Of a stretch of 22,575 nt of DNA, positions 1 through 13,837 are shown piece after piece. The DNA is from a virus. Position numbers and translations under genes: made by a program. Under the pieces are notes generated by a model. That model had not been told where the DNA came from. It saw nothing but the letters and a program-made list of their open reading frames with translations, and ran no database searches. How positions within the stretch are numbered: position 1 is the stretch's first letter; every line of letters begins with the position of its first letter. The stretch lies in IMG/VR virus record IMGVR_UViG_3300027872_000025, positions 1 through 22,575 of that record; one strand, written 5' to 3'.

Positions 1-1107
1 GATCGTCGTCTGGACGAAGCCAGGGTTCCCGGTCGAGGGGATGACGCCGTCCCACTGGCGGGTCGGGTTATTCGGGACGAACTTCGAGGCGTCGTTGTAG
101 CCGGTGAAGGTCGGGATGAGCTGGCGGCAAGGGTACACGCATCGCTCCTGGAACGACGTCCGGTTCGTGCCGGCGAAGCTCCAGTTCTTGAAGTATCTCC
201 ACTGACCATCGAAGAAGCGGACGCCGGCCGGGCCGCGCGTGTTGCCGCCGGTCTCGGTCGCGGCGCCAGGGTCCGCGAGCCCCGACTGGCTGGGCCCGGA
301 CGCGGAGAAGCTCCGGTTCCACTTTGAAGTCGAGCCGGAGATGTATAACGGATAAGGGAACTCGACCGGCGTCGCGAACGTGTTCAGAAAGCCCTGGTAG
401 AAGGACGTGTAGGTCGAGCCGATCCGGAAGATGCCGGAGAGGGCGCGCGGCGTGACGTGCAGCCAGCACTCGATCGAGCCGTCGGTGAGCGGCGTGAACG
501 ACGCGATCTCGTTCGGCGAGAGGTAGGAGAAGCCCGGCTGGTCCTCGAGGGCGAGGATGGTGTTGAAGCCGGTCATGCCGAAAAGCTGCCAGTTGAATAC
601 CGCGATGTCGGTGTCGCGGACCTCGAGGATCCCGATGAAGATCTGGTCGGCGCCGGCGTTGCCTGGCCCCTCGAGGAGGACCTCGCGCTCCAGGACCTGG
701 GTGCCGGTCCCGCCGGCGATGAGGACGTTGTTGATGTTCGAGGCAGAGGCCGCGTCGTTCCGGTTGATGACCCAGTTCTGCGTCTCGAAGGTCAGGTCAA
801 ACGTGGCATCGTCGTTGCCGGTACCGCCCGTGACGGCGACCGGGTTGCCGGGCTGCGCCGAGTAGGCGCCGCAGTTAAATATCCGGACCCCGTCGACCAC
901 GCCCGCGGCGACGCTGGTCACCTCCAGGGTAAGCGATAGGCTGTTGACGACCGTGCCGCCGGTAACGTCCAGGATATCCCCGATGGCATACCCGGTACCG
1001 CCCGCGTTGACGGCTACCGCGACGCCGTTGTCGTTCGTGGCGAGATCCAGCAGCCGAAGCAGGGCCTCGTCGTATCCGGTGACCGTTACATTGTGTGTGG
1101 CGCTCAC
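1..1107 (-). CDS. Distal tail / virion structural protein, 3' end cut by window edge
   Basis: The reading frame is open from a GTG at 1107 to the left edge: 369 codons with no stop. The start follows AGGAGG by a few bases, and that site overlaps the tape measure stop codon, so the two genes are coupled. Residues about 35-105 hold a beta-rich motif beginning GGTGYAIGD, with later AVTGGTG and NDDATFDLTF. I know this pattern from many phage virion proteins. The middle (about 115-230) and C-terminal part are rich in Asn, Gly, Ser, Thr and aromatics, as in receptor-facing or tail-tip proteins. The position directly after the tape measure is where siphovirus distal-tail and tail-tip genes sit. I do not recognise a specific named family, and the full length is unknown. 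The structural role is an inference from position and composition. Confidence 0.75.
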   Translation of the reverse strand, partial: MSATHNVTVTGYDEALLRLLDLATNDNGVAVAVNAGGTGYAIGDILDVTGGTVVNSLSLTLEVTSVAAGVVDGVRIFNCGAYSAQPGNPVAVTGGTGNDDATFDLTFETQNWVINRNDAASASNINNVLIAGGTGTQVLEREVLLEGPGNAGADQIFIGILEVRDTDIAVFNWQLFGMTGFNTILALEDQPGFSYLSPNEIASFTPLTDGSIECWLHVTPRALSGIFRIGSTYTSFYQGFLNTFATPVEFPYPLYISGSTSKWNRSFSASGPSQSGLADPGAATETGGNTRGPAGVRFFDGQWRYFKNWSFAGTNRTSFQERCVYPCRQLIPTFTGYNDASKFVPNNPTRQWDGVIPSTGNPGFVQTTI

Positions 1108-6914: not shown

Positions 6915-7454
6915 CTACCCGGCCCGGGCCGTAAGGCCTGCGATGCCGACGCGTAGCCAGCGGCGTATCACTAGCTCGGCGCGCGGGAAGGGCTTAAACC
7001 GTCGCGGGCTCGTGTTTTTATAGGACGTGGCCGTCGCCAGGACATCCACCTTCTCGCTGATGCTGCCGATCTCCCGGCCGGTCTCATCGTACTGCGGGGT
7101 CGGGGCCAGCGCTGACGGGGCTGCCTCAAACGCATACTCGATGGAGGCGTTGCCGACCTCCTCCGGTATCTCGTCCGCCGGGACCAGGACGCCAAGCTCG
7201 TCGAACACCCGGTTGCGCGGCCATTCGAGCCGCTGGCTTGAGGAAAAGCGCTCTCCCTTGTAGCGGCGCCGGTAGGTCTGGTCCAGGTAGTCCGCGCCCT
7301 GTATCAAAGCCGAGCTGCGCTCCTTCGATGAGAAGGCTTTCCACGCCGTTTTCCGGTCGGAGTTTTCGAGGTACTGATCGGCGTCGTCGAGGTTCGCGTA
7401 AACGTTCGCGTCGTCGAGCCCGGTGCCGTCCTCTTTTACCAGGGTGATCGCCAT
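6915..7454 (-). CDS. Head-tail adaptor, DnaT-like family
   Basis: 179 residues. MAITLVKEDGTGLDDANVY opens the protein and is followed by a helical part with SALIQGADYLDQTYRRRYKG, then LEWPRNRVFDELGVLVP, and a basic C-terminus (RRFKPFPRAELVIRRWL). The 'A..Y.D....R..G......Q.L.WPR' arrangement is what annotators call 'DnaT-like ssDNA-binding'. In phage genomes it occupies the connector adaptor (Ad1) slot and binds the portal ring. It is a structural adaptor here because of its place between the capsid region and the head closure gene; a role in ssDNA binding would not fit the context. A TAGGAA site precedes the ATG. Confidence 0.8.
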   Translation of the reverse strand: MAITLVKEDGTGLDDANVYANLDDADQYLENSDRKTAWKAFSSKERSSALIQGADYLDQTYRRRYKGERFSSSQRLEWPRNRVFDELGVLVPADEIPEEVGNASIEYAFEAAPSALAPTPQYDETGREIGSISEKVDVLATATSYKNTSPRRFKPFPRAELVIRRWLRVGIAGLTARAG

Positions 7455-7463
7455 TTCGATTTC

Positions 7464-7841
7464 CTATTTCGTGATGTCCTGCTGGAAGATATACCGCTCC
7501 TTGGCAACGGTCAGAATCTTGCCGGCGGTATCCGTCTGTTCGATATCGTAAAAATACTCCTCTGGCTCCTGATCCGCGTCGCCGGGCGACCAGGGGAACT
7601 CCACCTCGCCGGCGGGCCCGTCGGTTATCGTGCCGACGATGCTGGCGATCTCCGTGCCGATAGGCACGCCCGGGTCCGGGTCCTCCTCGGTGTTCACGGT
7701 CATCTTGAAACCGAAGCCGGTGACGTCCAGGGCCACGACGGGGCTGCTCTCCGGGTCCAAGACGAAAATCTTATCGGGAGCGGTGTCGCCGCGTTTGCGG
7801 GCGATGCATATTCCCGCTCGGTCTGTGTCGCATGAGGCCAT
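7464..7841 (-). CDS. BppU-N-terminal-like virion protein
   Basis: 125 residues, ATG after AGGAG. It contains RKRGDTAPDKIFVLD followed by a beta strand run (VTGFGFKMTVNTEEDP) and ends EYFYDIEQTDTAGKILTVAKERYIF. That order (RGDT, a strand naming a modelled 'function', then a 'Y.Y.I......G...T.....' end) resembles the N-terminal domain of phage baseplate upper proteins. Short proteins of this type often sit just before the head-tail adaptors in siphoviruses, as here. In the sequence I see a compact beta domain with an acidic middle. The tie to a baseplate or fibre is inference. It could be an anchoring module for the long repeat protein encoded immediately upstream (10 bases away). Confidence 0.6.
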   Translation of the reverse strand: MASCDTDRAGICIARKRGDTAPDKIFVLDPESSPVVALDVTGFGFKMTVNTEEDPDPGVPIGTEIASIVGTITDGPAGEVEFPWSPGDADQEPEEYFYDIEQTDTAGKILTVAKERYIFQQDITK

Positions 7842-7850
7842 CGTCGTCTC

Positions 7851-9860
7851 CTATGGGACCGATTGCGTGGAGTTGTCCTGATCTATTGAGATCGTTTGCC
7901 GGGTATTTTGCAAGAATACCAGCAAGGACTGCAGCGAGTTAGGAATGCGTCGTGCGGTCTGATCGAACATCGAGCCGGCAAGCGTAAACGCCAGTTCGGC
8001 GAGCCCGCTCAATTCGCCGACGCCGCGCAGCGTACCGTCCGCATCGATAGTCAACTGCGCCGAGCCCTGCATCGCGCCGAGCCCGACCAGGTTGCCGGAT
8101 GCGGTGACGACCATATCGGCGCTGCCGGCGAGCGCACCGACACCGAGGATATCGCCTGCGGCGTCGATTGTAAGGTCGGCCGTCCCCTGAATGAATCCGG
8201 GCGCGGCGAGGGTGCCGGTCGGCGTAATTACCAGGCTGGCGCTTCCGAGGATATTGGCCGTGGCGATCATGGTGCCGTCGGCCGTGATGGTCATCGTCAG
8301 GCCGCCGGCCAGCGCCCCGGTAGCCAGCAGCGTACCGGCGGCGTCCAGCGTCAGCGGTACGGTGCCGGCCAGCCCACCGATGCCAGCAAGAACGCCCGCC
8401 GGATCGATAGCAAGGCCCAGGCTACCGGTCAAAGAGCCCAGGCCCGCCAAGGTCCCGGCGGGCGTAAGCACTAAATCGGCGCTGCCGGCGATGGCCGCCA
8501 AGGCCGTCAAATTGCCCGCGAGCGTAAACGTGAGGCTCGCTGCGCCCAACAAACCGCCGGTGGCTACCAGCGTGCCGGCAGGCGTGATCGTGAGGCTGGC
8601 AGCGCCAGCCAGCGCGCCTAGACCGGCCAGCGTCCCCGTGGCGGTGATAACCAGCGGCACCGTGCCGGCAATGGCCCCGCCCGCCGCGTCGACCGCGTTG
8701 CCCGTAACGTCGAAAACCAGCGCCGCCGTGCCTACCAAATCGCCCCGGCCGACAAGCGTCGCCGCAGGCGTAAGCAGGAGCGCGACGGAGCCGGCCAGTT
8801 CACCTTGCGCGCCAAGGGTGCCCGTGGGTGTTAATACGATGGCGCTGCTGCCAAGCAGGGCTCCGAGGGCCTGTAGCGTACCGGCGGGCGTCAATACCAG
8901 GGAGGCCGATCCGGTAAGTGCGCCGGTCGCCTGTATGGCCCCGGCCGGCGTGATCAGGAGGGCCGCCGACCCGGCAAGCGCACCGCGACCGAGCAGCGTG
9001 GCCGTCGGCGTAAGGACCAGGTCGGTGGATCCGAGCAGCGTGCCGAGCGCCTGCATGGTTGCCGTCGGCGCGATGGCCAGAGCGACGGAGCCGGCAAGCT
9101 CGCCCCGGCCGACGAGCGTGCCCGCGGGCGTGATCGTCATATCCAGCGAGCCGGAAATCTCCCCGGCCTGTAGCTCGATGATTTCGACGCCGACCATCAT
9201 CCAGTCCTTGTCGTTGTCGACGACGTGGGTGATCGTGTCGGTGCCGGTTGGCGGATTGATCCGCGTAAAAATCCCCATCGTCGAGGCGTTGCCGCCGTCG
9301 ATATTCTCGACGAAATACTGCTGCGTGTAGTCGGCGTCGATCGTCACGAAGTCGTCGTTCCTGGGATAGCCCATATTCAGAATGAGCGAGCCGGCATTGT
9401 CGACAGTAATGACGAGTTCCGCGTCGGTGTTATCGGTCCCGCCGCCGCACGTCGGCGAGGCGCTGGTGCCGTTTGTGTTGCCATAGTCGCCGTTGATGGG
9501 CGCCTGGTTTTCAGCACCGGAGATTCGGTTAACGGTGATATGCGCGCCGCTGTCCAGCGGGTCGCCGTTGAACGTGGTCACCAAAGTGAAGCTCGACGGC
9601 GAGCCGAACGCCCACCAGAACTCGGCGCGCGGCTCGGAGAGCCGTCCGCCACACGCGACCGTCCCCGACACCAGCGCCCAGGTAAGGCCGCCGCCGGTCA
9701 TCGAAAGTACCTCGCTCGTTCCGGGCGTCCCGTTGCTCGTCCAAAACACGACGCTGACGAGGTAGAACTGGTCGGTCCCGCCGGGGACGCTCGGGACGTC
9801 AAGGAAATCGTCCGGGACCGTCATGAGCGCGGCCGTCACGCTTTCATAAACGGTACTCAC
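7851..9860 (-). CDS. Large repeat-containing virion protein with N-terminal globular domain
   Basis: 669 residues; GTG start overlapping the previous stop (GTGA). Residues 1-230 form a beta-rich domain with many Trp/Phe/Tyr and motifs LTWALVSGTV, AEFWWAFGS and TLVTTFNGD. It looks like a jelly-roll or lectin-like fold. Residues 237-638 are about twenty repeats of 20 residues with consensus GSAxLxLTPAGTLxGxGxLA; one copy has 22. Each copy splits into two 10-residue halves that both begin G-S/T, as expected of a stacked beta-strand solenoid. The repeats contain almost no Lys, Arg or aromatics. A short charged, Gln/Ser-rich tail (639-669) closes the protein. It lies in the capsid/connector interval, not in the tail fibre area. 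A capsid fibre or decoration protein is possible, but no homologue with known function comes to mind. Confidence 0.85.
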   Translation of the reverse strand: MSTVYESVTAALMTVPDDFLDVPSVPGGTDQFYLVSVVFWTSNGTPGTSEVLSMTGGGLTWALVSGTVACGGRLSEPRAEFWWAFGSPSSFTLVTTFNGDPLDSGAHITVNRISGAENQAPINGDYGNTNGTSASPTCGGGTDNTDAELVITVDNAGSLILNMGYPRNDDFVTIDADYTQQYFVENIDGGNASTMGIFTRINPPTGTDTITHVVDNDKDWMMVGVEIIELQAGEISGSLDMTITPAGTLVGRGELAGSVALAIAPTATMQALGTLLGSTDLVLTPTATLLGRGALAGSAALLITPAGAIQATGALTGSASLVLTPAGTLQALGALLGSSAIVLTPTGTLGAQGELAGSVALLLTPAATLVGRGDLVGTAALVFDVTGNAVDAAGGAIAGTVPLVITATGTLAGLGALAGAASLTITPAGTLVATGGLLGAASLTFTLAGNLTALAAIAGSADLVLTPAGTLAGLGSLTGSLGLAIDPAGVLAGIGGLAGTVPLTLDAAGTLLATGALAGGLTMTITADGTMIATANILGSASLVITPTGTLAAPGFIQGTADLTIDAAGDILGVGALAGSADMVVTASGNLVGLGAMQGSAQLTIDADGTLRGVGELSGLAELAFTLAGSMFDQTARRIPNSLQSLLVFLQNTRQTISIDQDNSTQSVP
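7947..9152 (-). repeat. Coding tandem repeat, about 20 units of 60 bp
   Basis: These are in-frame 60-base units encoding the 20-residue repeats described for the 669-residue protein. Codon choice differs between copies although the protein pattern is kept. That suggests old copies kept by selection at the protein level, not a recent expansion. One unit is 66 bases, adding two residues (near residue 390). No spacer or palindromic direct repeat is present, so this is not a CRISPR array. Confidence 0.9.
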
Positions 9861-10243
9861 GGACGCGGCTTCCCGACATTCGGATTGCCGCTCCGCAGGG
9901 AGCGCAGTCGGTTGCGCGCCCGCGCCGGCAGGTTGGCCTCGTTCGCGCCGGCGAACAGGCGGTGGATACCGATCATAATTTGCACGGCTTTGTCGTTCCA
10001 GGCGGGGTCGATTGCGACCCGTTCAAACGACTGGATGTCGGCTACCTGCGCGGAGGTAAGGGCGGGGAAATATTGAACCAGGGCCCTCTGTATCTCGGAC
10101 AGCGTGTCGTCCGCCGGATCGAAGCGGGTATCCGCCGGCCACCGGGTTTTGTTGTCGTGATCCGAATGGGCGAGATCGGCCAGCTCGTGCGTATCGCCGA
10201 GGTCAGGCGTGAATATCCAGACGATATTGTTCGCAAGCGCCAT
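9857..10243 (-). CDS. Unrecognised 128-residue virion-region protein
   Basis: ATG start with a CAGGGG site. The last four bases overlap the start of the repeat protein, so the two are likely translated together. The N-terminus reads MALANNIVWIFTPDLGDTH, then an Asp-rich stretch with DDTLSEIQRALVQYF, a helical middle (LTSAQVADIQSF), and a basic C-terminal tail rich in Arg and Asn (ARARNRLRSLRSG). There is no signal peptide or membrane segment. I do not know the family. Its coupling to the repeat protein suggests a partner such as a chaperone or anchor, which is only inference. Confidence 0.7.
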   Translation of the reverse strand: MALANNIVWIFTPDLGDTHELADLAHSDHDNKTRWPADTRFDPADDTLSEIQRALVQYFPALTSAQVADIQSFERVAIDPAWNDKAVQIMIGIHRLFAGANEANLPARARNRLRSLRSGNPNVGKPRP

Positions 10244-10258
10244 GTTGCCGACCCCTGT

Positions 10259-10729
10259 TCAATTTAGACGGGCATTGGCATTCGCGTCGGTTAGGATGCC
10301 GGCGATATTCAGCGTCCTGCTGGTATCTCCCGCCCACCGCTTGGCCTGCTTTCCTGCCTCCCGGAACCAGGCCGCGATCTGCATCGCGCCAGGCGCCGAC
10401 CACTGGATAATCTGATCGCTGATCTGAAACACGACCAGTTCGCCTTGCGCCCGTACCTGCCACGGGTGATTGCCGTGGCTCCCGTGGCCGTCGTCGAGTA
10501 TTACCTCGGACAGCTGCTCGGGACGGACGGGCTGGCGCTTCATGTCCGTTACCTCCTGCCGCGTGCAACCGGAGAGCCGGCCGGCTACGTTGGCAGATAG
10601 GCGCAGGCGCTGCGCGATCAGGAAAGCCGAGTGATAGGAAAACCGTGCGGCGTGCTTGCCGACGGTGAATACCACCACGTCGTCGTCAGTCGCTACCGAT
10701 ACGTCCTCACGTTTTGCCAGCTCGCTCAC
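10259..10729 (-). CDS. Unrecognised 156-residue protein
   Basis: GTG start overlapping the previous stop (GTGA). The first 25 residues are acidic, followed by a beta strand (DDVVVFTVG), then a helix SAFLIAQRLRLSANVAGRL, and later EVILDDGHGSHGNHPWQVRA and a C-terminal helix AAWFREAGKQAKRW. A His/Gly-rich loop (HGSHGNH) near residue 105 could bind metal, but single sites like this are common and I do not call an enzyme. The neighbours are all capsid-region genes, so a virion or assembly role is most likely. Confidence 0.68.
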   Translation of the reverse strand: MSELAKREDVSVATDDDVVVFTVGKHAARFSYHSAFLIAQRLRLSANVAGRLSGCTRQEVTDMKRQPVRPEQLSEVILDDGHGSHGNHPWQVRAQGELVVFQISDQIIQWSAPGAMQIAAWFREAGKQAKRWAGDTSRTLNIAGILTDANANARLN

Positions 10730-11031
10730 GCGGCGAGCGAGGCTGCCAGCATCGCCTTCGTGTCCTTGGCCCCACGGCTACCCGCAAGCGTCGCGGCGCG
10801 CATGGCTTCGTGCGCGTCCTTCCACTCGGGATTGTCATCGAGGTCAGCTTCGTTACGGGTTGCGCGATAGTTAAGCTCGGCGTTTCGTCGGACCGCCTCT
10901 TTGGCGAACGCGGCGACCTGGCTGTCGTTGCCGGCAGCCTTCGCGCGATCCGTCAAGGTAGCGACCCGGGTCAGCCGCAATTCAATGCGCGCCTGACGTT
11001 TTACGTTTTTCAGAAATGACGAGAGTTGCAT
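10726..11031 (-). CDS. Unrecognised 101-residue helical protein
   Basis: ATG start, TAGGAG site overlapping the previous gene's stop. The sequence is almost wholly helical and highly charged: ARIELRLTRVATLTDRAK, FAKEAVRRNAELNYRATRNE and EAMRAATLAGSRGAKD. It ends in an Ala-rich tail. There are no cysteines or membrane segments. It may be a small assembly or chaperone-like protein. No family is recognised. The overlap with the next gene (GTGA) suggests the two are made in similar amounts. Confidence 0.68.
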   Translation of the reverse strand: MQLSSFLKNVKRQARIELRLTRVATLTDRAKAAGNDSQVAAFAKEAVRRNAELNYRATRNEADLDDNPEWKDAHEAMRAATLAGSRGAKDTKAMLAASLAA

Positions 11032-11040
11032 TTTGGTCTC

Positions 11041-11484
11041 CTAGTCCAGGCTAACATCCAAATCGCCGGCAGCGAATTCGGGCGTAATGCCTGTGCTGAC
11101 TGCGAGGCTGGCGGCAAGTGCGCCCACCATATTCAGGAAGCCGACGCCCGTCGAGGCGAAGCCGAGCCCGAAATGGGTGATCGTATCCGAGCCGGCGGTC
11201 GCTTGCGGGTATGTAATCGCGGCATCGTTATCCGCCACGCCGGACGCGACGGTCCAGCCGGCAGTGCTACGCGCAACACCGACGCGTGCATACGGTGTGT
11301 ATGTCGCCTCGTTGACCGTTTGGTCGCTGACCGATTCGGCGGGCAATGCCGTCAATAGGCTGGTGAAAAAGCTGCCCGCGCCGACGGAGGGTTGCAGGCC
11401 ACCGGCATCACCGACGTTCGGCGCTGCCACGTTTGTCATGATCAGATCGAGCAGATCATCTTCCCAAAAATCTTGTGCTGACAT
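11041..11484 (-). CDS. Virion protein of the 'tail fibre gp80-like' type, possibly capsid decoration
   Basis: 147 residues. The N-terminus is a helix (DDLLDLIMTNVA), a Gly/Ser-rich part follows, and then YARVGVARSTAGWTV, AAITYPQATAGSDTITHFG and a C-terminal small-residue region. I recognise the 'Y.RV.V.R...GW.......N...I.FP.A......HF' pattern from a family often labelled phage tail fibre protein (Gp80-like) that is widespread in siphovirus structural modules. The ATG follows TAGGAG. It has the longest leader in this cluster (89 bases), with a promoter-like element and a 12-base motif shared with the capsid leader. That suggests high, separately controlled expression, as for a decoration protein. 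The function is inferred. Confidence 0.72.
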   Translation of the reverse strand: MSAQDFWEDDLLDLIMTNVAAPNVGDAGGLQPSVGAGSFFTSLLTALPAESVSDQTVNEATYTPYARVGVARSTAGWTVASGVADNDAAITYPQATAGSDTITHFGLGFASTGVGFLNMVGALAASLAVSTGITPEFAAGDLDVSLD

Positions 11485-11516
11485 TTTCGGCTCCTAAGTT
11501 GATGGCATAGCTGGAG

Positions 11517-11528
11517 CCCTCACGGCCG
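11517..11528 (-). promoter_or_regulatory. Leader motif CGGCCGTGAGGG (copy 1)
   Basis: This 12-base motif lies 32 bases ahead of the ATG at 11484. The same 12 bases lie 31 bases ahead of the major capsid ATG at 13837, and the next few bases are also alike (YTC, then GCT). It may be a shared translational or transcriptional control element. Two copies are weak evidence on their own. Confidence 0.35.
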
Positions 11529-11538
11529 CTGCTTGGTG

Positions 11539-11568
11539 ATTATCACAGAAAACACGCTTACACGTCGA
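11539..11568 (-). promoter_or_regulatory. Candidate sigma70-like promoter
   Basis: On the minus strand, TCGACG (4 of 6 to TTGACA) lies 18 bases ahead of GATAAT (5 of 6 to TATAAT), with an extended-type TG just before it. It would drive the 147-residue gene at 11484 and the downstream accessory and connector genes. It falls in one of the few real gaps of the operon. Based on match to consensus only. Confidence 0.35.
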
Positions 11569-11573
11569 GTTGA

Positions 11574-11999
11574 TCATGTGAGCGTTCCGGTTGCGACCAA
11601 TAGTCGCTGGCTTTTCGGCCCGAAAAAATAAACCTGCAGTGTGCCGGTTGCTACCGCCGCACCTCGAGTAATTTGGAGATCTCGCCCCTCCCCGAAGAGC
11701 GCCCGGATGGTCGTCAGGTTTGCAAGGTCCTCCGCATTGCGCGCTTGCGAAATGCCGTCGCTAAACAGCGTGTCGCCAGCTGGTATTGCCGCCGAAGCGG
11801 CAAGCACCTCGACCAGGATGCGGACGTTTGCCGGGAGGGTGAGATCGTTCGGAAACACGGCCGACGCAGCGGCCGAACCGAAATCATGTGGTGTCGCTAC
11901 CAGGGACGCGAAGTCCGTCTGGTCCTGCTTTTTTCGGCGCCTCTCACGGGCAAACCATCCACGCGCGTCGTCCGCGCTGGCCCCGGTCGGCGTTGCCAT
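11574..11999 (-). CDS. Unrecognised 141-residue capsid-region protein
   Basis: ATG at 11999, two bases after the previous stop, with AGGA upstream. The N-terminal 30 residues are charged and basic (ARERRRKKQDQTDF), and the rest is beta-rich: VRILVEVLAASA, GDLQITRGAAVATG and LQVYFFGPKSQRLLV. That layout, a basic tail plus a small beta domain just after the capsid genes, fits a capsid cement or inner-capsid protein, but I recognise no family. Confidence 0.65.
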   Translation of the reverse strand: MATPTGASADDARGWFARERRRKKQDQTDFASLVATPHDFGSAAASAVFPNDLTLPANVRILVEVLAASAAIPAGDTLFSDGISQARNAEDLANLTTIRALFGEGRDLQITRGAAVATGTLQVYFFGPKSQRLLVATGTLT

Positions 12000-12001
12000 G
12001 A

Positions 12002-12697
12002 CTAGTCCTGGCCGGCGGCAGCTGCGTCCGGGACGGCTCCCTTCGCGTGGTCCGCGGCAGCCGAGGCTTCAGGCTTCACCGCACTGCGAAGCGGCCGGGC
12101 CATGCCACGGGCTCGCTGGCGGTGGAAGGCGGCGTCGATGGGAGCCTTGCCGGCTGCCTCAAGCAGCGCTTTAAGTCGGGCCGGCTCCAGCGCACGGTTT
12201 TTCCGCAGCGCTTTCTGGCTCTCGACGTATCCCTTCACGGCGTCGACCGGGCGGTCGCTCTTCACCAGGGACGGATACAGGTCCGCCATGAGCGCGCGGG
12301 CCTCCTCCTTGCAGGCGTCGATCTCCGCCAGGGCGGCCTCTAGCCTGTCCTGGACGCCGACTAGCTTTTCCCGGATGCCGGTCTTGCGCTTTTCCTCGGC
12401 GATGTCCTGTTCGGTAGGCGTCGGCGGGGCTACGAGCGCGTCGTCGTGGCGTACCTTGTCGGCGGCCCGTTTGTCGGCCAGCGGGTCGCGCCGGGCCCGG
12501 TCTACGACCGGAAGCGCGCCGTGTGCGCCCGTGTCCGGGGCGGCAGTTTGGGGAGGGTCAGCGGTAGGGGCTACCTCGGTCGGCGCCGGCAGCGGGGCAC
12601 TGGCGGCCTCGTCACTGGCGTGTTCCGGCCCCGATCCGCCGGAATCCGGCGATGCGGCGCTTTCCTGCCCTTCTTCGGGCTCGTTCGTTTCTGACAT
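12002..12697 (-). CDS. Acidic, disordered plus coiled-coil protein next to the capsid gene
   Basis: 231 residues. I choose the ATG at 12697 because AGGAGG lies 8 bases before it; the frame is open 20 codons further but without a good site. Residues 1-95 are rich in Glu, Ser, Pro, Ala and Asp and look disordered. Residues about 95-175 are charged helix (KRKTGIREKLVGVQDRLEAA, KEEARALMADLYP). The C-terminus is basic (FHRQRARGMARPLRSA), then Ala-rich. It lies 79 bases after the major capsid stop. This layout could suit a scaffold-like, capsid-tethered or DNA-binding protein. No family is recognised. Confidence 0.7.
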   Translation of the reverse strand: MSETNEPEEGQESAASPDSGGSGPEHASDEAASAPLPAPTEVAPTADPPQTAAPDTGAHGALPVVDRARRDPLADKRAADKVRHDDALVAPPTPTEQDIAEEKRKTGIREKLVGVQDRLEAALAEIDACKEEARALMADLYPSLVKSDRPVDAVKGYVESQKALRKNRALEPARLKALLEAAGKAPIDAAFHRQRARGMARPLRSAVKPEASAAADHAKGAVPDAAAAGQD

Positions 12698-12775
12698 TAG
12701 TCGGGCCTCCTGGTCCTGGTTTAAGGGGAGCCGGGCATCACGCCCGGCCTCCGACACGGTGATTGCGAGGGCTGC

Positions 12776-13837
12776 TTAGAACTCGGTCGTCACCAGGCGC
12801 GCGGCCTTGATCTGCTTCCGCTCGGGGAAGGTCCGCGCCCAGTTATTCACGCCATCGGTAATTTCGGCGTTGGTCGGGCCGCCGTCCGTATTGGCAACCG
12901 ACCCGGAAAGGAATCGGTGACCGACCGGATGCATGGTCCATTCGATCCGGCTGAAGAGGCTCTCGCCGCCGCCGCCGTTGCCCTGGTCCGGATCGCGATC
13001 GATCTCTGCCGGCACCTTGGGATTGCCGACGCCCCACCGGGACGCCATCGCTCCGAAGATCCAGGTGTCGAATACGCCCGCGGCGTTCGGCATCGAATCG
13101 TCGACGATGACACGCCGGCCGAGGAAGGTCGGAATATCGGCCGCCGCCGCGTTCGTGCTATCCGGAATGAAATCGATCAGGTTGTTTTTCTGCGCCTTCG
13201 AGAAAACAATCGAATGCATGAATACCGCCACGAAGTCGCTCTGCGAATCGCCTGCGGTAGTGATGGCATCGATGAATGCCTCGGCAGAAAAGTCCGTCAC
13301 GCCTGGGGTAAACGCTCCGCTGATATCGACCGACAGGTCGTCCTGGGCAGCGTTGTTGGTGATGCCCGCCCGCGGGTCGTCGTTCGGAGTCACCTGGGCG
13401 TTGTCGGCAAAGATGCCGGTCCAGGTAGACACGAACACAGCCTGTAGGCGCCGACGCCAGTAAGACGCCACGTTGGCTGCGATTGCGTTTGACGGGTCGT
13501 CGCCGGCAAGCGCGCTGACCAGGTCCATCGTTTTCCAGGACTGGTTTCGCGACAAGCGCGTGGCGAGTTCCTGGTTCGTCTGGATCTTGGCCGGCACTGC
13601 TATCTGCGCCGGGTCGTCGCTCGATACTCGATCCGCGAGGATATTCGAGTCGTCGTCGATATCACGCCATGAGGGCGCGTTGAAGGTTGTGCCACCGCCT
13701 ACGAGGAAACCGTCCAGGGCAGGGTCGCGAACGACCACGCCGCTGTCGACCAGCGCCGTTTTCTGCTCCGTGAGTGTCCGGACGTAAGGGGCGAAGATTT
13801 CCGGGACTACTACGTCCGCAATGCGTACCTCGGCCAT
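12776..13837 (-). CDS. Major capsid protein (HK97-fold type)
   Basis: 353 residues; ATG with AAGGAG. It forms the icosahedral shell. It begins MAEVRIADVVVPEIFAPYVR, typical of the capsid family sometimes called gp13-like. Further on are LTEQKTALVDSGVVV, FNAPSWRDID, QELATRLSRNQSW, and SSYWRRRLQAVF-like segments where capsids of this family have the spine helix. Near residues 230-265 there is SIVFSKAQKNNLIDFIP and RRVIVDDSMP, and the C-terminus ends NWARTFPERKQIKAARLVTTEF-like with a GSVANTDGGPTNAEI loop. There is no N-terminal prohead protease region, so cleavage is not expected. The scaffold gene is immediately upstream, as in this family. Confidence is high from order and N-terminal match; fold family is by recognition only. 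Confidence 0.9.
   Translation of the reverse strand: MAEVRIADVVVPEIFAPYVRTLTEQKTALVDSGVVVRDPALDGFLVGGGTTFNAPSWRDIDDDSNILADRVSSDDPAQIAVPAKIQTNQELATRLSRNQSWKTMDLVSALAGDDPSNAIAANVASYWRRRLQAVFVSTWTGIFADNAQVTPNDDPRAGITNNAAQDDLSVDISGAFTPGVTDFSAEAFIDAITTAGDSQSDFVAVFMHSIVFSKAQKNNLIDFIPDSTNAAAADIPTFLGRRVIVDDSMPNAAGVFDTWIFGAMASRWGVGNPKVPAEIDRDPDQGNGGGGESLFSRIEWTMHPVGHRFLSGSVANTDGGPTNAEITDGVNNWARTFPERKQIKAARLVTTEF

Follow-up and report, generated by a model that had tools for sequence, protein, structure and literature searches.

A repeat protein encoded between the capsid and connector genes of a siphophage: a probable neck-fibre stalk with exchangeable N-terminal heads

The protein REP (669 aa) is encoded between the capsid and connector genes of the 22,575-base virus record analysed in this work (the window, i.e. 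the entire stretch of DNA), which is part of a siphophage. REP is probably the backbone or stalk of an appendage near the neck of the virion, which resembles fibre I of the podophage GP4, carries exchangeable outer heads and has dimers of a gp80-like protein as its partner. This explanation is favoured due to the homology of a neighbouring protein to gp80, the co-occurrence of this protein with REP (in 8/8 of the complete gene intervals containing REP versus 0/8 of those lacking it), the conserved C-terminus of REP, the incongruent relationships of its heads and arrays, its repeat number, the 20-residue period of gp80-adjacent proteins elsewhere, and the loci of the phages Slickus01 and LSH1. 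We infer that REP is present in virions with the polarity described below, that it contacts the gp80 homologue and that it functions in adhesion.

Location of the REP gene and characteristics of its repeat array

On the minus strand of the window, the genes are arranged in the order terS, terL, portal, MuF, scaffold, capsid protein, a 251-aa and a 141-aa protein, followed by the gp80 homologue, the 101-, 156- and 128-aa proteins, REP, the 125-aa protein and Ad1, and then by Hc1, neck, tail terminator, tail tube, chaperone and tape measure (Table 1). This order agrees with the capsid-to-connector location, apart from the tail-tip genes, that the first-pass annotation had assigned to REP, and such a location suits a head or neck fibre. 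The capsid protein is about 54% identical to those of Pseudomonas phage PaMx25 and Sphingomonas phage MMDA13 (Nipunavirus/Chi-like phages), and the stretch of six genes from the gp80 homologue to the 125-aa protein, REP included, has no counterpart in these two phages or in Roseobacter phage RDJL3. The 125-aa gene is found in every complete REP locus, and the 128-aa protein may be specific for head type A, e.g. as a chaperone or a capping subunit. The protein encoded after the tape measure (window 1-1107) matched both PHROG 687 (structural protein) and PHROG 9703 (head decoration), and this is unusual for a tail-tip position.

Table 1. Features of the window in and around the REP gene
Feature	Position	Strand	Evidence or distribution
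Head-tail adaptor Ad1, which opens the connector module	6915..7454	-	PHROG 477, E=2.6e-36
125-aa protein between REP and Ad1, candidate anchor/adaptor	7464..7841	-	PHROG 1084, E=5.8e-6
REP, predicted 669-aa repeat fibre protein	7851..9860	-	GTG start; ORF, periodicity and family evidence
Conserved C-terminus of REP, residues 639-669 (IPNSLQSLLVFLQNTRQ...NSTQ), putative virion-side anchor	7854..7946	-	Conserved across head types
Repeat array, REP residues 237-638	7947..9152	-	Twenty repeats: nineteen of 20 aa and one of 22 aa
N-terminal head type A, REP residues 1-236	9153..9860	-	Mainly beta predicted, low confidence
128-aa small protein	9857..10243	-	Restricted to loci with head type A (window, L001, L002)
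156-aa small protein, same insert	10259..10729	-	Present in all REP loci
101-aa small protein, same insert	10726..11031	-	Most REP loci; absent from complete intervals without REP
gp80 homologue (podophage GP4 fibre I protein), putative bead/partner of REP	11041..11484	-	PF23140, E=2.3e-15
Major capsid protein	12776..13837	-	PHROG 247, E=1.4e-92

The 669-residue ORF described earlier was recovered at exactly the same position, and its array of about twenty repeats is borne out by autocorrelation analysis. The array consists of nineteen 20-mers and one 22-mer, and its identity at lag 20 is 0.398 versus 0.124±0.016 for shuffled sequences (maximum 0.19; 2000 shuffles), with similar values at lags 40 (0.384) and 60 (0.389). 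The consensus of the repeat is G-S-A-D/S-L-T/V-I/L-T-P-A-G-T-L-x-A/G-x-G-A-L-A, in which the G at position 1 is invariant. It had also been suggested that each repeat is made of two 10-residue halves starting with G-S/T. In support of this, positions 11 and 12 are occupied by G in 16/19 and T in 13/19 of the copies, but the similarity between the halves is weak, the identity at lag 10 being just 0.151. The near absence of charged and aromatic residues noted earlier was likewise observed, as only 24 of 400 residues are charged (none of them Lys), 5 are aromatic or His, and Cys is absent. The mean pairwise identity of the copies is 43% for protein and 52% for DNA, and no array was detected at the repeats by Tandem Repeats Finder; judged from these values, the copies are old. 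In comparison with L001, the nearest full-length relative, the array retains 67% identity at the protein level but only 38% at third codon positions, and purifying selection therefore acts on the protein pattern; strong selection on the shape had been suggested earlier from the low DNA identity and tight protein pattern of the copies. The residues 637-669 are 94% identical to those of L001.

Distribution of REP in environmental relatives and exchange of its heads

A search with the capsid protein brought together 48 environmental loci, and among those examined REP was present in 13, additional copies being found by a search with its C-terminus. Wherever the interval is complete, REP is always located between the gp80 homologue and Ad1. 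The complete copies are about 670 to 1320 aa long, and the comparison of repeat numbers in related phages, which the first-pass annotation had proposed as a check, gave 16 to 32 repeats in the relatives that were scored. Of the 16 complete intervals, 8 contain REP together with the gp80 homologue and the other 8 contain neither; however, these are loci of one phage group, some of which are nearly identical (viz. L009/L043 and L016/L017), and therefore there are fewer independent co-occurrence events than loci. Outside of these loci, no match to REP was found in Pfam, PHROG, INPHARED or PLSDB, the only match in PDB by sequence was at chance level, and no occurrence of its C-terminus in bacterial genomes was confirmed.

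All copies whose end is present share the C-terminal motif IPNSxQ...NS/TRQ, followed by NSxQ repeats of about 10 residues, whereas the N-terminal heads are of at least four mutually unalignable types. One type (type A) is common to the window, L001 and L002, and outside of the window it is seen only in these two loci; two further groups are formed by L009/L010/L016/L026 and by L029/L046, and the heads of L035, L036 and L038 are singletons. Comparison of the head types with one another by hhalign showed no homology, despite a likeness by eye, and when the heads were sought in other genes of the sister phages they were present in REP only. The window array is closest to that of L010 (76%), whose head is unrelated, whereas the window head is closest to those of L001 (72%) and L002, the arrays of L001 and the window being 65% identical. 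Similarly, the L010 head is closest to that of L026 (63%), while the L026 array is closest to that of L046 (78%). This incongruence shows that the heads have been swapped on a continuing shaft and anchor. As the C-terminus is conserved while the heads are exchanged, the C-terminus would face the virion, and the N-terminal head is probably the outer end of REP. In classical trimeric tail fibres the N-terminal anchor is conserved and the C-terminal tip is variable, and thus REP shows the opposite pattern. In L010, the REP gene is broken up into a pair of overlapping frames (10362-12761 and 12689-13012; 799 and 107 aa), due either to a genomic frameshift or to an error of assembly.

The gp80 homologue and the 20-residue period in other phages

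The GP4 fibre is reportedly made up of five gp80 dimers joined by a rope protein. The family profile of the gp80 homologues matches PDB 8jou_a (E=8.5e-6), and the chain counts in 8jou are 10 (for 8jou_a) and 3. A gp80 gene is followed in the phages Lacusarx and Mae-JY04 by a protein of 543 or 625 aa and then by Gp77 (GP4 fibre-tail adaptor family). The Bcep22-like phages give strong matches to both gp80 and Gp77, with a protein of 246-285 aa between them, which is adjacent to Gp77 in BcepIL02 and separated from it by one extra gene in BcepMigl; in BcepIL02, all three proteins (gp55-57) are annotated as virion-associated. The Bcep22-like middle protein has an identity of 0.271 at lag 20 versus 0.091±0.021, and a 20-residue period was observed in the gp80-adjacent proteins of phages unrelated to that of the window, viz. 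BcepIL02, CSP3, BcepMigl, Mae-JY04, MW202711 and MW202657 (z 3.3-10.4; 7.9, 10.4 and 3.3 for the last three, respectively). Only a weak period was seen in Lacusarx, RXM and MW202692. BcepMigl gp28 had no match in PDB by sequence, and the strict REP repeat profile found none of the gp80-adjacent proteins elsewhere. The REP repeat sequence was matched in phase clearly above shuffles only in MW202657 among these proteins, and one control reached a z of 2.6; hence, these data do not show that the repeats share an ancestor. The feature common to REP and these proteins is the period, the position and the partner.

The REP locus and those of GP4 and the Bcep22-like phages are alike in having a gp80-family gene in a module beside adaptor genes, and a neighbouring protein that shows a 20-residue period and ends in short repeats. 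However, the REP phage is a siphophage, its repeats number 16-32 in the REP family versus about 7-11 (counted by eye) in the GP4/Bcep22-like proteins, and the REP family has large exchangeable N-terminal heads. Further, the 125-aa gene gave no Pfam match at all, Gp77 (PF23148) included, and an hhalign probability of 0.1% against Gp77, and due to this the REP locus is not filed as a strict member of the GP4 fibre I group. The lack of detectable Gp77 kinship, the few in-phase repeat matches, the weak periods and the near-duplicate loci all count against a reading of the GP4 fibre I kind.

One example of a similar module is provided by Alishewanella phage LSH1, in which gp34-36 form a three-protein module whose members always occur together and were detected in virions by mass spectrometry [PMC13243795]. 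In this module, gp34 has a lyase-like head and a poorly modelled beta-helix-like tail, gp35 is a dimer, which matches 8JOU_g and is said to form a fibril linking the adhesin to the collar, and gp36 has an Ig-like fold; the authors were unable to account for the low-quality beta-helix beside the gp80 homologue and cautioned that it might be a hallucination [PMC13243795]. Thus, the earlier statement that no characterised protein has the plan of REP is only partly true, as gp34 has a similar plan. Slickus01, which carries a larger gp34-like protein [PMC13243795], was picked solely because it is named in this paper. When about 100 kb of Slickus01 and 50 kb of Slicko01 were scanned for a 20-residue period, two ORFs stood out. 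The stronger one encodes a 2313-aa protein of Slickus01 (L085:10380-17321), in which the last ~800 residues have a 20/40-residue period; after its gene come those of a 107-aa protein and of a 121-aa protein, the latter weakly matching Gp80 (E=0.0035, below the cut-off). The Slickus01 locus has the same set of parts as the REP/gp80 module. LSH1 and Slickus01 share with REP a head domain joined to a poorly modelled repeat-like region, a gp80-like dimer protein and a small third protein, and Slickus01 also shares the period. However, their heads are lyase-like beta-helices, their sequences are unrelated, and in LSH1 the gene is placed after the lysis genes.

Predicted structure of REP and alternative interpretations

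A rather unlikely alternative is that REP stands by itself as a spike or head fibre, built as a parallel beta-solenoid of the filamentous haemagglutinin type that is rigid on its own and does not need the gp80 homologue. In the AlphaFold2 monomer model (14 sequences), each 20-residue coil has three short strands, with pLDDT values mostly of 50-83 in the array and below 50 in the head. A second-look alignment matched the array model to the HxuA secretion domain (Z 16.1, rmsd 2.0 over 196 residues) and to the Marinomonas antifreeze beta-helix (Z 20.1). However, such alignments are what would be expected of any model of this kind, and repeats easily yield doubtful beta-helix models, as for the similar LSH1 protein [PMC13243795]. 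Foldseek of the REP model against PDB found nothing significant (best E 0.48), and in BFVD it gave only low-TM matches to repeat proteins. The filamentous haemagglutinin repeats (PF05594) are similarly low-charge beta repeats of about 20 residues, characterised by a right-handed parallel beta-helix, and the relative L038 exceeds the Fil_haemagg cut-off (25.8 versus 21.5 bits), with no single stretch passing. However, the REP of the window has no match to this family, lacks a secretion domain and lies in a phage structural locus, and the strict coupling to the gp80 homologue is left unexplained by this alternative. Based on these models, a free-standing beta-solenoid is possible, but the regular solenoid, the sugar-binding head and the homotrimer considered in the first-pass annotation are tentative; the division into a long repeat shaft and a separate, globular, all-beta-looking head is supported. 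Modelling of the head by itself gave an all-beta structure at a pLDDT of about 36, which is too poor for a fold claim or a structure search.

It is improbable that REP and the gp80 homologue are instead decoration or linker proteins in a lattice on the capsid surface. The genes adjoin the capsid genes, PHROG 240, which the gp80 homologue matches, is labelled 'head protein', and phage 7-7-1 has dimeric decoration and linker proteins together with capsid fibres [PMC12796354]; however, gp80 and its companions are fibre parts in GP4 (8jou; Pfam names), the REP module abuts Ad1, and related phages lacking the module have intact capsid gene sets. Least probable of all is a conventional tail or side fibre encoded away from the usual place, as the fibre-like plan and variable ends of REP, and the other fibre-like cassettes held by the same slot in sister phages, are outweighed by its reversed polarity of conservation, the lack of a match to the tail-fibre families of Pfam and PHROG, and a location ahead of the connector genes.

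Proposed function of REP

In the neck-fibre explanation that we favour, the C-terminus of REP and the 125-aa protein would hold the fibre on the virion, the 20-residue repeats would form a long shaft where the gp80-like dimers associate, and the array length would set the reach of the fibre. The exchangeable N-terminal head would be directed outward and would probably contact the host surface or surface polymers, and the repetitive array would let recombination exchange the heads while leaving the anchor untouched. However, the outer head need not be an adhesin, since the neck fibre of Anabaena phage A-1(L) has a distal carbohydrate-binding module for which no binding to the host was detected [PMC10966104]. 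This neck fibre (gp80-81-82) resembles the proposed one in its five flexible fibres, many copies of a bead protein and a large distal domain, but its beads stack head to tail with no rope, and so far as seen there is no sequence kinship.

We also put forward, as a tentative extension, that each 20-residue repeat may be a docking unit for one subunit of the gp80 family, in which case REP would be a ruler for the number of beads (about 20 here and up to about 32 in its relatives) and the repeats would be ordered only when bound to beads. If true, this reading would bring unrelated fibres from podo-, sipho- and myophages under a single scheme. The occurrence of a gp80 homologue beside a protein of 20-residue period is a pattern recognised in this work and is not taken from a published definition; it provides a sequence rule, which would find a widespread class of virion fibres that is mostly unannotated, and it offers an answer to the puzzle posed by LSH1, viz. 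a folded head beside long, poorly modelled stretches. Further, the REP family shows that phages exchange entire outer domains while the stalk stays constant, and the polarity of this exchange is reversed relative to the classical tail fibres.

Other cassettes in the REP slot

In the 8 complete intervals without REP, the slot is occupied by other fibre-like cassettes. In sister phages without REP, the structural cassette in this slot includes a sulfotransferase gene (L042:7385-8194; PF13469, E=2.8e-21), with a similar gene in L011 and L012. The alternative cassette of L011 also encodes a 509-aa protein (L011:12260-13789) without a Pfam match, whose GSFAQG-type repeats resemble YadA-like head repeats by eye. 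A protein of about 100 aa is encoded before the adaptor-position gene in the REP-less cassettes of L019 (8123-8419), L011, L012, L025 and L042; it starts near IPNSLGAG, and its IPNS motif is reminiscent of the C-terminus of REP.
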